From assembly GCF_000720925.1 (NCBI RefSeq), contig NZ_JOEE01000001.1, forward strand, positions 248,001 through 312,000: a DNA stretch of 64,000 bases, given 5' to 3'. The notes below the pieces were generated by a model. It saw only the letters and a program-made list of their open reading frames with translations, was not told the origin of the DNA and made no database searches. Both the position numbers and the translations under genes were made by a program. Shown here piece after piece: positions 14,337-42,133 of this stretch. Positions within the stretch are counted from its first letter, which is position 1. The number at the start of each line of letters is the position of its first letter. The DNA is from Phycicoccus jejuensis (lineage in GTDB: Bacteria > Actinomycetota > Actinomycetes > Actinomycetales > Dermatophilaceae).

Positions 14337-14428
14337 GCTGGTCCTCTCGATGGATCCGCAGGTCAGGCGGCTGCCCGACCGGTCCTCGCCACTCTAGTGC
14401 GCGCGGGGATATGCTCGGGGGGTCCAAC

Positions 14429-14514
14429 GACAGGGGAGCGCCCAGGCGCTGAGAGTGCGGTCCGACCGCAGACCCTCGAACCTGATCCGGTTAGCACCGG
14501 TGGAGGAAGTCGGG
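14429..14514 (+). ncRNA. TPP (thiamine pyrophosphate) riboswitch
   Basis: The conserved thi-box is clear: AGGGGAGC at 14432, GCTGAGAG at 14447-14454, then GACCCTCGAACCTGATCCGG (14471-14490) and TTAGCACCGG-TGGAGGAAGT. It precedes a thiamine/HMP transporter. Bases CTCCC at 14575-14579 can pair with the GGGAG ribosome-binding site at 14600-14604, so control of translation start is plausible (inference). Confidence 0.96.
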
Positions 14515-14615
14515 AAATCTCAGGTGTGCTCCGTCGTCGCCGGCCCTCCGGGGCCGCGCGCCGGCGGGTCACCCCTCCCCGAGGTCGCACACCGACCACG
14601 GGAGAAGCACTGCAC

Positions 14616-36601: not shown

Positions 36602-37591
36602 ATGAGCATCCGCCTCGGCTACCAGATCCCGAACTTCAGCTACCCCGGGGGCGACCCCGCGCGCATCGTGCCGACCGTGGTCCAGCAGGCGCAGGAGGCG
36701 GACGCCGCGGGCGTGGACGCCGTCCTCGTGATGGACCACTTCTACCAGCTGCCCGGCATCGGCGAGCCGGACCAGCCCATGCTCGAGGCCTACACGCTGC
36801 TCGGCGCGCTCGCGACGGCCACCGAGCGGGTGCAGCTCTCGACGCTCGTCACCGGCAACACCTACCGCAACCCGACGCTGCTCGCGAAGGAGGTGACGAC
36901 CCTCGACCTCGTGAGCGGCGGACGCGCGGTGCTGGGCCTCGGCGCCGGCTGGTTCGAGCTCGAGCACCGGCAGCTGGGCTTCGAGTTCGGCACCTTCACC
37001 GACCGCTTCCAGCGGCTCGAGGAGGCGCTGTCCATCATCGAGCCGATGCTGCGCGGTGAGCGGCCGACGGTCTCCGGCGAGTGGTACCGCACGGAGTCGG
37101 CGATGAACGAGCCGCGGCTGCGCGACGACCTGCCGATCCTCCTCGGCGGTGGGGGAGAGCGGAAGACGTTCAAGTACGCGGCTCGCCACGCGGCGCACCT
37201 CAACCTCATCTGCAACGCGACCGAGATCCCCCGCAAGCTCGAGGCCCTCGCCGCCCGGTGCGAGGAGGAGGGGCGCGAGCGCTCGACGCTCGAGACCAGC
37301 TACCTGGCCTTCGTGATGATGGACGAGGACGGCGACGCGGCGCGCCGCCTGCACCGGGACTTCCTCGCCGCCCGTGGCGTCGACCTCGACGCGATGGACG
37401 AGGACCAGCGGCGCGCCTCGACCGACCGGCAGTTCGCCGGCACGCCCGAGGAGGTGGCCGGGCAGCTGCAGGAGCGGGTGCTCGACCACGGGGTCGACGG
37501 GCTCATCGTCAACATGGTCGCCAACGGCCACGAGCCGGGGGTCGTCTCGATGATGGCCGAGGCGCTGGCGCCCCTCGTGCGGTCGCGCTGA
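36602..37591 (+). CDS. LLM-class F420-dependent oxidoreductase
   Basis: The 329-residue TIM barrel belongs to the luciferase-like monooxygenase superfamily. It opens with RLGYQIPNFSYPGG and has DAVLVMDHFYQLP, LSTLVTGNTYRNPTLLAKEV and VLGLGAGWFELEH, which form the flavin/F420 site. These features fit F420-dependent reductases better than FMN monooxygenases. ATG at 36602 is preceded by TAGCGT at a gap of 7 bases, suggesting a leaderless message, although GAGG is also close. The substrate is unknown. Its presence implies that the organism makes F420. Confidence 0.9.
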   Translation: MSIRLGYQIPNFSYPGGDPARIVPTVVQQAQEADAAGVDAVLVMDHFYQLPGIGEPDQPMLEAYTLLGALATATERVQLSTLVTGNTYRNPTLLAKEVTTLDLVSGGRAVLGLGAGWFELEHRQLGFEFGTFTDRFQRLEEALSIIEPMLRGERPTVSGEWYRTESAMNEPRLRDDLPILLGGGGERKTFKYAARHAAHLNLICNATEIPRKLEALAARCEEEGRERSTLETSYLAFVMMDEDGDAARRLHRDFLAARGVDLDAMDEDQRRASTDRQFAGTPEEVAGQLQERVLDHGVDGLIVNMVANGHEPGVVSMMAEALAPLVRSR

Positions 37592-37615
37592 CCCGCCCGC
37601 GGGGCGCCGCAGGCG

Positions 37616-37858
37616 TCAGGCCTCGGGCTCGACCCGGGGGGAGGCGCCCTGCAGCTCGTCGATGAGCTCGGAGGCGTGCGCCTTGGTCAGGTTCTCCGGC
37701 ACCTCGCGCCCGGCCTCGCGGGCGAGGGTCGAGAGGTAGCTCAGCTGGGGGCCGGTGGCGGGCTCGTCACCGGTCGCCCACTGCTCCGGCGGCTTCGTGG
37801 CGTCCTGGGGGTCCTGGATCGGGTCGGTCTGGGCGGGGTTCTGGTCCTGGGTGCTCAT
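37616..37858 (-). CDS. DUF3072 small protein
   Basis: The 80-residue acidic protein has a disordered, Gln/Pro/Asp-rich N-terminus and the DUF3072 core GPQLSYLSTLAREAGREVPE followed by LTKAHASELIDEL. The core resembles SAP-like or plasmid partition-type helix-extended-loop-helix motifs, but the function is unknown. TAGCGT at 37870-37865 on the gene strand lies 6 bases before the ATG, suggesting leaderless transcription. Confidence 0.78.
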   Translation of the reverse strand: MSTQDQNPAQTDPIQDPQDATKPPEQWATGDEPATGPQLSYLSTLAREAGREVPENLTKAHASELIDELQGASPRVEPEA

Positions 37859-37981
37859 CCCTGCACGCTACGGACCGGGTCCGACAGGTCGCCCCGCCGT
37901 GACCGACCCACGGGGTCCGTGTATCACCCGGGTGCGGCGTCGTCTCCTGCCGCGTGACCACCCACGCACCCGGGAGACGCC

Positions 37982-39133
37982 ATGGCCACCATCCCCGTCC
38001 GCCTCCGCCTGGAGAAGCTCTTCTGCTACCACGGCGCCGACGAGAGCGACAGCGAGCCGTACCTGTGGACCGTCGTCGTGACCCTCGACGGCCGCACCAT
38101 CACGCACCGGCCGGACGCGCCCTCGCTCGACGGGGCTCCCGGCATCTGGTCCTCGCCGGGCAGCCACGGCAGCCTGGGCGGGCCGGTGGGCATCGGCGAG
38201 AACCGGACCGTGCCGGCCGCGGTCGGCCACCACGACACCACGCTCGAGCCCATCGTCATCACCGCGGCCGGGCACCGGGTCGAGGTGCCGGGACGGCTCG
38301 TGCTCGTCGCGATCCTCCTCGAGGACGACATGACCTCCGACGAGGGGGCCGAGGCCGCGCACGCCAAGGTCGTCGACCTCCTGCGCACCGAGCTGACCGA
38401 GGCCGTCGCCGACCTCGACCTCGACGGCGTCGGGGCGAAGATCCTCCGCGGCCTCGCCGAGGGCCGCACGGCGCAGGACGTCGCCACCGAGTACCTGCAG
38501 CAGCGGATGAAGCGCGTCGTCGACCGGCTGAACCGCTACGCGCAGGACGTGGCGATCGCGGCCATCGTGCGCGAGCTGAGCTTCCCCGCCGCGGTGGTCG
38601 AGGCCTCCGACCCGGACGACTTCCAGGGCATCGTCGTCCGTTCGTGGAGCCAGGACGAGATCGCGGCGAGCGACACCCACCGCCGCCTCGCCGTCGACGA
38701 GCTGATCTACGACCACGGGGCGGGCCACCGGGAGGCCTCCGCCTACAACTACGCCCTCCACGGGCACGTCTGGCAGCCGATCGAGGAGTTCTGGGTCCCG
38801 GTGGCGGACACCCTGCCGCCGGGGCGGTGGCAGGTGACCGGCATCCAGCGGACCGGGCGCAAGCCCTTTATCAGCACCCTCGGCGGGGTGCTGCCCGACG
38901 GCAGCCCATGGGCGATGTCGAAGAGCCGGGTGATGGACCTGCTGCGCGCCGGCACGCACACGTTCTTCGTGCGCGGCGAGACCGGTGCCGAGGCCGACGT
39001 CGTGACGACCGAGAACGAGGACAACCCCTACTTCCCCTACCTGGCGACGGTCGCGGACGCCGACCCGACGAACAACCTCTCGACGCTCCCGCCGTGCACG
39101 GTGGCCATCCGGCACACCCGCCCGGCGCCCTGA
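37982..39133 (+). CDS. DUF3892-like domain protein of unknown function
   Basis: The 383-residue protein has three parts. An N-terminal beta-rich part (about 1-120) begins TIPVRLRLEKLFCYHGADES. A helical middle follows (about 120-200; VDRLNRYAQDVAIAAIVREL). The C-terminal domain (about 285-380) contains LPDGSPWAMSKSRVMDLLRA, NEDNPYFPYLATVADADPTN and NLSTLPPC, which looks like DUF3892. Some of the N-terminal wording resembles proteins annotated as calcium- or phage-related, but no function can be given. It has no signal peptide. ATG at 37982 follows GGGAGACGCC. Six terminator-like repeats follow the stop, so it is probably monocistronic and strongly isolated from dnaK. Confidence 0.7.
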   Translation: MATIPVRLRLEKLFCYHGADESDSEPYLWTVVVTLDGRTITHRPDAPSLDGAPGIWSSPGSHGSLGGPVGIGENRTVPAAVGHHDTTLEPIVITAAGHRVEVPGRLVLVAILLEDDMTSDEGAEAAHAKVVDLLRTELTEAVADLDLDGVGAKILRGLAEGRTAQDVATEYLQQRMKRVVDRLNRYAQDVAIAAIVRELSFPAAVVEASDPDDFQGIVVRSWSQDEIAASDTHRRLAVDELIYDHGAGHREASAYNYALHGHVWQPIEEFWVPVADTLPPGRWQVTGIQRTGRKPFISTLGGVLPDGSPWAMSKSRVMDLLRAGTHTFFVRGETGAEADVVTTENEDNPYFPYLATVADADPTNNLSTLPPCTVAIRHTRPAP

Positions 39134-39145
39134 CGTCTGGCTGAC

Positions 39146-39451
39146 TGGTCGGGACGGCCCCGGGACAGCGACAACCCCGCACGTGCGGGCTTTTCGTGGT
39201 CGGGACGGCCCCGGGCCAGCGGTAACCCCGCAGGTGCGGGCTTTCCGTGGTCGGGACGGCGAGGCAACAGCGATAACCCCGCAGGTGCGGGCTTTCCGTG
39301 GTCGGGACGGCGAGGCAACAGCGATAACCCCGCAGGTGCGGGCTTTTCGTGGTCGGGACGGCGAGGCGACAGCGATAACCCCGCACGTGCGGGCTTTTCG
39401 TGGTCGGGACGGCCCCGGGACAGCGGTAACCCCGCACGTGCGGGCTTTTCG
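39146..39451 (+). repeat. Six tandem 51-base repeats, each with a terminator-like hairpin
   Basis: Units start at 39146, 39197, 39248, 39299, 39350 and 39401, all exactly 51 bases. Each has TGGTCGGGACGG, a variable linker (CCCCGGGACAG in units 1 and 6, GAGGCAACAG in units 3 and 4), then AACCCCGCACGTGCGGGC and a T-rich end (TTTTCG or TTTCCG). The stem CCCGC/GCGGG is invariant; the only change in the hairpin is C/G in its loop. On the plus strand each unit looks like an intrinsic terminator. The array fills most of the 496-base gap between the DUF3892-like gene and dnaK. Confidence 0.92.
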
Positions 39452-39470
39452 GCTGGGGTCCTGGTCGGGG

Positions 39471-39497
39471 GGAACATCCGTGCCCACCCGAGGGTTG
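39471..39497 (+). promoter_or_regulatory. Candidate SigH/SigR-type promoter of the dnaK operon
   Basis: GGGAAC (39470-39475) and GGTTG (39493-39497) are spaced by 17 bases, matching the SGGAAC-N17-22-SGTTS pattern of the SigH/SigR oxidative and heat stress sigma factors. It lies upstream of the HAIR operator. Confidence 0.5.
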
Positions 39498-39555
39498 AGC
39501 CTGGTGGACGCAAGTTTCGGCCCAACGATTTGTGCAGGATGGTCGGCGGGGCTAA

Positions 39556-39576
39556 CTTGAGTGATAACGACTCAAC
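39556..39576. promoter_or_regulatory. HAIR element (HspR operator) before dnaK
   Basis: CTTGAGT (39556-39562), a 7-base spacer GATAACG and ACTCAAC (39570-39576) match the HAIR consensus CTTGAGT-N7-ACTCAAG with one difference in the last base. It lies 54 bases before the dnaK ATG, and hspR is the last gene of the operon it should control. Confidence 0.92.
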
Positions 39577-39629
39577 CCAGTCCGTGGGCGCACCGCCCCG
39601 GCCCAGCACCACACCAAGGAGCACCACAC

Positions 39630-41515
<1,886 letters not shown>

Positions 41516-41519
<4 letters not shown>

Positions 41520-42133
41520 CCGACTCCTCGATGGACGACTCGGTGAACACCGAGGCGGTCAACGACGAGCCGCAGCGCGGTGAGGAGGCGGCCCCGGCAC
41601 AGTCCGGGGCCGCCGCCCCCGGCGGGGTGCCCGCGGGCGAGCCCGCGGAGGCCCCGGCCGAGGGCGCCGCGCCCGCCGGCGAGGGCCACCCCGACACGGT
41701 CCTCGCGGCCGAGCGCCTCGCCGACCTCCAGCGTCTCCAGGCCGAGTACGTCAACTACAAGCGCCGCGTCGACCGGGACCGCGCCGTCGTCCAGGAGCGT
41801 GCGGTCCACGACGTCCTGGAGTCGATGCTCGCCGTCCTCGACGACATCCACGCCGCGCGCGAGCACGGCGACCTCGTCGGGCCGTTCGCGGCGATCGCCG
41901 ACAAGCTCGAGGGCACCCTCGGGCGCTACGGCCTCGAGCGTTTCGGGGCCAAGGGCGAGGAGTTCGACCCGCAGCTGCACGAGGCGCTCATGCACGCCCC
42001 GTGGCCGGCCGGCGACGACGAGCTCCCGAGCGGCGCGAGCGCGACGACCGTCGTCACCGTCCTCCAGCCCGGCTACCGTGCCGGTGAGCAGGTCCTGCGT
42101 CCTGCCCGCGTCGCGGTCGCCGACCCCGACTGA
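41516..42133 (+). CDS. grpE: Nucleotide exchange factor GrpE
   Basis: The 205-residue cochaperone releases ADP from DnaK. The N-terminal 60 residues are acidic and Ala/Pro/Gly-rich and look disordered. The coiled coil begins at about residue 65 ([23 protein letters not shown]) and the beta domain carries [20 protein letters not shown] and [21 protein letters not shown]. The GTG at 41516 overlaps the dnaK stop, so synthesis is coupled to DnaK. Confidence 0.97.

Follow-up and report, generated by a model that had tools for sequence, protein, structure and literature searches.

A 51-bp repeat array beside dnaK belongs to a dispersed, lineage-restricted family of extragenic palindrome arrays

The array beside dnaK

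The window, as the whole 64,000-nt stretch of DNA analysed here is called, contains six copies of a 51-bp unit between dnaK and the gene preceding it. The first-pass annotation took them for a row of terminators, or a binding array, that shields dnaK from transcription of the upstream gene. The question raised by this locus is whether the array is a device of dnaK or one copy of something more general.

As shown in Table 1, the units are arranged head-to-tail. Tandem Repeats Finder placed the array proper at 39146-39451, with a period of 51, 6.0 copies, 92% matches, 0% indels and a score of 451, the highest among 28 rows for the window (next best, 79); the span first annotated, 39134-39629, was wider. 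When the six 51-mers were compared, 10 of 51 columns were variable; eight of these belong to the linker, one to the T-run and one to the loop (ACGT or AGGT), and no variable column fell in the CCCGC/GCGGG arms. The repeat search and the column count bear out the six 51-bp units and the stem described as invariant in the window. The core is followed by CTTTTC in four of the six units and by CTTTCC in two; the T-run is not a family-wide feature.

Table 1. Coordinates of features in the window and of a second dispersed repeat.
Feature	Position	Strand	Remarks
Upstream gene	37982..39133	+	383 aa; stop 43 bp before first core
Repeat unit 1	39146..39196	+	core 39176-39189, CCCGCACGTGCGGG
Repeat unit 2	39197..39247	+	core 39227-39240, CCCGCAGGTGCGGG
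Repeat unit 3	39248..39298	+	core 39278-39291, CCCGCAGGTGCGGG
Repeat unit 4	39299..39349	+	core 39329-39342, CCCGCAGGTGCGGG
Repeat unit 5	39350..39400	+	core 39380-39393, CCCGCACGTGCGGG
Repeat unit 6	39401..39451	+	core 39431-39444, CCCGCACGTGCGGG
Inverted repeat CTTGAGT-N7-ACTCAAC	39556..39576	+	between array and dnaK, outside array
dnaK	39630..41519	+	629 aa, NCBIfam equivalog NF001413; start 186 bp past last core
TPP riboswitch	14422..14525	+	RF00059, 61.9 bits
GTGTTCAGGAATCGTCGAATGTGTCGGTTCGTGCACG repeat copies	L001 about 2245-2331; G000 C10:96386-96479, C3:416035-416177, C1:553564

The upstream gene, first called DUF3892-like, matched no Pfam or NCBIfam family at 1e-3. The inverted repeat in front of dnaK presumably resembles the HspR (HAIR) operator, and similar sites are present upstream of dnaK in array-less members of the genus. 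A terminator scan of 37000-42000 gave four sites, three of them array units, compared with a mean of 1.5 (sd 1.2) in shuffles of the stretch. The sole Rfam match above the gathering score in the window was the TPP riboswitch, which lies outside the array; two sub-threshold matches to miRNA models fell in the array.

A dispersed family in three genera

In what follows, G000 is the genome of the window, G160, G157, G154 and G158 are of the same genus, and G100, G041 and G042 are of the same family. BLAST of G000 with the window array as query returned 59 matches, both strands counted, which fall at the window and in 24 other places. The whole-genome search for the 51-base unit that the first-pass annotation had suggested thus yielded 25 arrays with 104 cores, two to six per array; since scoring covered 40 of 55 first-look candidates, the counts are minima. 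The exact 14-mer CCCGCACGTGCGGG occurred 76 times in G000, compared with once for the reversed control pattern, and because 75 of the 76 already lie inside the 25 arrays, few G000 arrays can be missing.

Core pairs exactly 51 bp apart (≤3 mismatches) were detected in eight of the family's 186 genomes, with a control count of 0: 77 pairs in G000, 67 in G160, six in G157, three each in G154 and G158, 55 in G100, two in G041 and one in G042. At ≤2 mismatches, four of 396 genomes in an order-wide sample matched, all from the same family, and none of the 361 sampled genomes from other families of the order had such pairs. The exact core pair was found in 43 stretches among 84,980 species genomes, 25 in this family and 18 outside it. 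Eleven of the outside stretches were read; nine had a core pitch of 57-62 bp and mostly looked like CRISPR, and two were from Cognataquiflexum. The remaining seven had listed match lengths of 74-75 bp, that is a pitch of 60-61 bp. The Cognataquiflexum pairs (L059 4839, L060 102), tRNA-like sequences with two 14-mers 51 bp apart, were judged by inspection to be coincidence. No match was detected in phages and plasmids (blastn, 1e-5), nor was an exact core pair with a separation of 36-38 bp in viral contigs.

The G157 array sequence is common to Phycicoccus sonneratiae, and the positions and sequences of the G100 arrays are common to Intrasporangiaceae MAG Centralia_MAG_384. The family occurs in few genomes of three genera in one actinobacterial family (Intrasporangiaceae; the genus includes Phycicoccus sonneratiae). 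No paper with the core sequence was found in the literature, and none on such arrays in this family, judged by titles and the opening parts of abstracts.

Orthologous loci and gain or loss of arrays

At the dnaK locus of G160 an array occupies the same place, with five cores and a different linker. A 170-aa minus-strand ORF (L089 2537-3049), absent in G000, intervenes between the upstream gene and this array, so that in G160 the array stands between divergent genes. Among the 12 genus members, the other 10 had no tandem cores in the dnaK loci retrieved, and a clear homologue of the upstream gene was found in G160 alone; the array is therefore neither a general feature of dnaK loci nor linked to the gene before it. 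Repeat number does differ between related genomes, in keeping with the alternative of an expandable minisatellite that the first-pass annotation had offered: six cores here, five in G160 and no tandem cores at the ten other loci. The stem, said never to vary, is constant in the window; units of the G160 ortholog carry CCTGC and CCGGC, and stem changes occur across the family.

The G160 loci collected first comprised 15 loci with 17 arrays, part of that genome's total, and 12 of the 15 map to G000 arrays by flanking DNA. For seven further G000 arrays, the orthologous G160 stretch contained tandem cores in three cases (L015, L010, L004) and none in four (L019, L018, L021, L001); no G160 ortholog was found for L020. 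Twelve flank-mapped loci and three further ones therefore make 15 loci common to the two genomes. Core numbers in G000 and G160 were 6/5 at dnaK, 5/9 at L002/L137 and 3/2 at L013/L091. The two-core locus L023 is common to G160 and G157, and to G158 adjoining on one side, so part of the family is old. Differences the size of a gene border the array in some ortholog pairs (window/L089, the L023 orthologs, L016/L122), amounting to about 0.6 kb at dnaK and about 1.4 kb at L023.

Arrays at some orthologous loci and not at others (3/7 vs 4/7) could reflect a REP/BIME-like palindrome that is or once was mobile, has no host function, was spread by an enzyme acting in trans and grew in tandem by core-to-core slippage. 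The four-core G160 array L099 is likewise missing in G000 (L173), where a few other bases stand behind the stop codon. Mobility would also suit the extragenic position, the 3'-end bias, the tandem arrays, the higher-order unit duplications in L002 (ABAB) and L092 and a G157 element of 65 bp that forms a perfect inverted repeat, each arm 26 bp long. We nevertheless consider it unlikely. The REP-associated Y1 transposase PF01797 was found in none of 17 genomes, all carriers included, by a search that covered that transposase class alone and was positive in 5 of 14 controls, E. coli among them. Visual inspection of the cleanest empty site (L099/L173) showed no target duplication, and with 75 of 76 exact cores inside arrays nothing in G000 points to a longer element ending in exact cores. 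Moreover, L023 is old, yet cores and pitch persist while linkers are replaced.

Constant core and pitch, changing linker

Of the 80 distances of up to 200 bp between successive cores in G000, 77 were exactly 51 bp, counted from cores with ≤2 mismatches at loci found by BLAST with no spacing imposed. The 51-bp pitch was also found in 53 of 59 distances in G160, 44 of 60 in G100, 15 of 19 in five low-copy genomes and 189 of 218 over all loci; outside G000 the loci were partly found by patterns limiting or fixing the spacing, and L062 of G100 was left out. Linkers were 37 bp long in 187 of 203 cases (48-54 bp chain rule), and 72 of 87 arrays had only 37-bp linkers. The palindrome centre was ACGT in 275 of 290 cores. 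Conservation of the core is partly ascertainment, the cores having served to find the arrays.

Identity of the linker centre (the middle 12 bases) between arrays was 0.40 in G000, 0.42 in G160 and 0.35 in G100, compared with 0.33-0.35 expected from composition; that of the arms was 0.78 in G000 and 0.63-0.71 in G100. Linker centres at the 15 orthologous loci of G000 and G160 were 0.49 identical, those of 417 non-orthologous pairs 0.41, and the best unit pairs of orthologous arrays reached 0.59. The flanks of the same 15 arrays, 12-150 bp away, were 0.885 identical in local alignments that include coding ends, with the weakest sides at 0.74-0.81. With the linker centre at 0.49 against flanks at 0.885, and only 0.59 for the best pairs, the linker is therefore replaced faster than its surroundings, while its length, the core and the locus stay.

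Within arrays of G000 the linker centres were 0.77 identical over 89 pairs, above the between-array level. This likeness, and the different core numbers of orthologs, would be expected of a neutral minisatellite, produced by slippage and with no role for the palindrome. Slippage alone, however, gives no single core and pitch in 25 arrays with unrelated linker centres, and would not keep core and pitch in three genera; nor do the cores evolve as fast as the linkers between G000 and G160. We hold a minisatellite and nothing more to be highly improbable.

Inversion of linkers between cores was rejected, orthologous linkers matching in the same orientation (mean best 0.59; flipped, 0.35). As to exchange between loci, the best centre match between different G000 arrays was 0.875 (2834 pairs). 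L013 and L095, different loci in G000 and G160, have centres 0.94 identical, a hint of occasional exchange between arrays. Some G100 linkers (L042, L049, L046) contain a GTTACC/TGAGTAA-like central motif, possibly another site. A coding repeat was also rejected: among the 72 arrays whose linkers are all 37 bp long, the best of six frames was open in 65, and no single frame was open through all arrays. What these data establish is a family of extragenic palindrome arrays, confined to one lineage, in which the pitch is rigid and the linker changes fast.

Gene context and the terminator reading

The arrays sit between called genes, many of them close behind stop codons. A core lay within 40 bp of a gene's 3' end in 34 of the 65 arrays with a measurable distance. 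Divergent gaps held 12 of 77 classified arrays, compared with 62 of 165 background gaps (Fisher p 0.0005), and 4 of 24 in G000 alone (p 0.065). These context counts come from a simple codon-usage gene caller, leave 10 of 87 arrays unclassified and take G000 and G160 orthologs separately. Between same-direction genes, 24 arrays ran along the genes and 22 against them in all genomes together; in G000 the terminator direction was taken by 11 of 15, with four against (p 0.12).

The genes ending beside G000 arrays are unrelated and include those for DnaA, an IMS-type DNA polymerase, an AlkA-type glycosylase, histidinol dehydrogenase, MarR and transporters. Nor did 40 flanking proteins searched against Pfam offer a shared neighbour as candidate binder; they are unrelated (photolyase, ClpX and GreA among them) and some had no match. 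One array (L004 2985-3202) immediately follows dnaA and is itself followed by a gap of 712 bp that may be the origin region; the orthologous site in G160 (L163) has two cores.

The proposal that the array shields dnaK as terminators or as a binding array has fared unevenly, the binding-array option gaining support and a device specific to dnaK or its upstream gene losing it, with 25 arrays beside unrelated genes. In the wider form of the terminator proposal, each unit would stop transcripts of the upstream gene by a hairpin and T-run, serially or in both directions, and the family would be a dispersed terminator cassette. The hairpins followed by CTTTTC in four window units, the three sites of the terminator scan, the closeness to gene 3' ends, the 11 of 15 G000 orientations and the good folding of single units as RNA all speak for it. 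Against it, orientation is without overall bias (24 vs 22), 12 of 77 arrays stand between divergent genes, and terminators need no fixed 51-bp pitch. The T-run itself is a minority feature, rare or absent outside two genomes: the 8 nt behind the core contained at least five T, on one strand or the other, for 32 of 104 cores from G000, 14 of 66 from G160, 2 of 85 from G100 and none of the 35 from the five low-copy genomes. A row of terminators insulating dnaK is not the best reading, and a terminator cassette appears rather doubtful on this evidence and that of the stem given below. Insulation by termination is possible as an effect in this genome and not as the conserved property of the family.

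RNA hairpin or double-stranded DNA site

The five stem pairs were compared over 290 cores: 1355 cells were unchanged, 86 broken and eight changed to G-U, and in one both sides were changed with pairing kept. These 95 changed cells stand against a conserved RNA stem, as does the conserved loop. Counted once per array, the changes were 58 broken, eight G-U and one compensated, and L018 has one identical uncompensated change in all five cores. Stem changes without compensation, which the first-pass annotation had named as evidence against terminators, are thus present in G160 and in the family.

In the arms of 37 G000 and G160 arrays, pairing was not above that of shuffled columns, and no covariation was detected. 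Positions ±8 from the dyad were mismatched in 34 of the 37 arrays and ±11 in 27, while ±9, 10, 13, 14 and 19 were mostly complementary. The arms change jointly between genera, from GAC..CGA.AA in this genus to CCTGAACAA in G100 and CCACTTT in G041 L132 and G042 L151, the latter two being without a T-run on either strand; G041 L131 has a different left arm (GACAAA) and TTTGT on one strand. For this joint change a hairpin is at least as good an explanation as an altered protein site.

Single 38-nt units folded as RNA at -16.8 kcal/mol (z -2.4) here and at -31.1 (z -7.1) in G041. Seven pieces were folded; five beat most shuffles and the two-core stretch of the window did not (z 0.82), and the G100 piece (z 0.93) was cut out of register. 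The whole 306-nt array folded only slightly better than shuffles (z -1.55, 5/100), which speaks against serial terminators. A 65-nt hairpin across two cores was rejected as the unit; it is perfect in the one G157 element. Because the outer arms are, by eye, often present too, the 38-bp palindrome centred on the core was taken as the unit. We infer that the palindrome is recognised as DNA, and that a hairpin, though possible, would not be the conserved feature.

Comparison with known repeat systems

REPs and BIMEs are described as sites to which several proteins bind (IHF, gyrase, Pol I), with links to termination and to the organisation of the chromosome (PMC2817692). The 51-bp arrays resemble them in being short imperfect palindromes that are extragenic, present in many copies and regularly spaced in clusters (PMC2817692). 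Unlike the alternating BIMEs, they run head-to-tail; judged by the arm score, units of both orientations occurred together in 1 of 25 G000 arrays and in 0 of 17 from G160. They further differ from REP/BIME in their rigid pitch and in numbering about 100 cores in 25 arrays, and from REPs with RAYT transposases in that the carriers are without the Y1 transposase. Inspection of the unit lists by eye showed no consistent GT(A/G)G head at the base of the palindrome. On the features so described, REP/BIME is the nearest kind, here without the transposase and with head-to-tail order.

MIRU-type minisatellites of mycobacteria are dispersed intergenic tandem arrays whose copy number differs between strains. 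They share these features and a unit of about this size with the present arrays, which differ from them in a conserved palindrome with a fast-changing linker.

CRISPR arrays likewise have a palindromic repeat at constant pitch, and the same 14-mer occurs in CRISPR-like arrays at 60-61 bp pitch, for example in Streptomyces, Nocardia and Gluconacetobacter (putative CRISPR). The present arrays are unlike CRISPR in their 51-bp pitch and in being many and small. A CRISPR array was rejected on the linkers, which are similar within an array and not unique as spacers would be (centres 0.77, 89 G000 pairs), and no listed Pfam match of the 40 flanking proteins was a Cas family. With intrinsic and tandem terminators the arrays have in common a GC hairpin, a T-run in part of the G000 units and a place after stop codons; they are set apart by a stem sequence fixed genome-wide, an unconserved T-run, no overall strand bias and the fixed pitch.

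A probable phased array for protein binding

We favour, with about even confidence, the reading that the dnaK array is one copy of a dispersed REP/BIME-like palindrome family, a phased array for predicted protein binding, and not terminators made for dnaK. The arrays are probably phased protein-binding arrays. Their constant parts are the 14-bp palindrome with its dyad-related arms and the 51-bp core-to-core pitch, by arithmetic about five helical turns. The core may be recognised as double-stranded DNA by a putative dimeric protein; adjacent sites would then share roughly one helix face, which could bring bound dimers into contact. A bound array might mark or close gene 3' ends as a roadblock or as a supercoil or nucleoid anchor.

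The 25 G000 arrays, the near-fixed pitch, the near-random linker centre, the lack of arm covariation, the deficit in divergent gaps and the 24/22 orientation argue for such a protein-binding array. The T-runs at 32 of 104 G000 cores, the 11 to 4 orientation in the terminator direction and the folding of single units as RNA weigh against protein binding, and a position near 3' ends would be expected as well if the arrays terminated transcripts in both directions or if insertions were simply tolerated there. More tentatively, and below even confidence, about 25 phased arrays of operator-like sites at five-turn pitch would be bound by a putative protein and serve as boundaries at gene ends, among them the arrays behind dnaA and before dnaK, with pitch and palindrome strongly selected and the intervening DNA replaced several times faster than its surroundings.

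A local curiosity is in this way extended to a family spread over the genome and following a rule that can be measured: palindrome and pitch are invariant, and the linker changes fast at fixed length. This pattern points to recognition of double-stranded DNA on one helix face. The family may be an actinobacterial counterpart to the enterobacterial BIMEs, without the transposase class tied to them. The two genomes with 15 shared loci offer a natural system in which tandem arrays keep their site while the intervening DNA is replaced.

Two other repeats were noted near the arrays or elsewhere in these genomes. A second dispersed repeat around GTGTTCAGGAATCGTCGAATGTGTCGGTTCGTGCACG is present in G000 and G160, with some copies close together (Table 1). 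A CGTCACCGTGACGGCGCGGA-like palindromic stretch, possibly a separate repeat family, lies just upstream of arrays L018 (about 2630-2770), L008 and L098.
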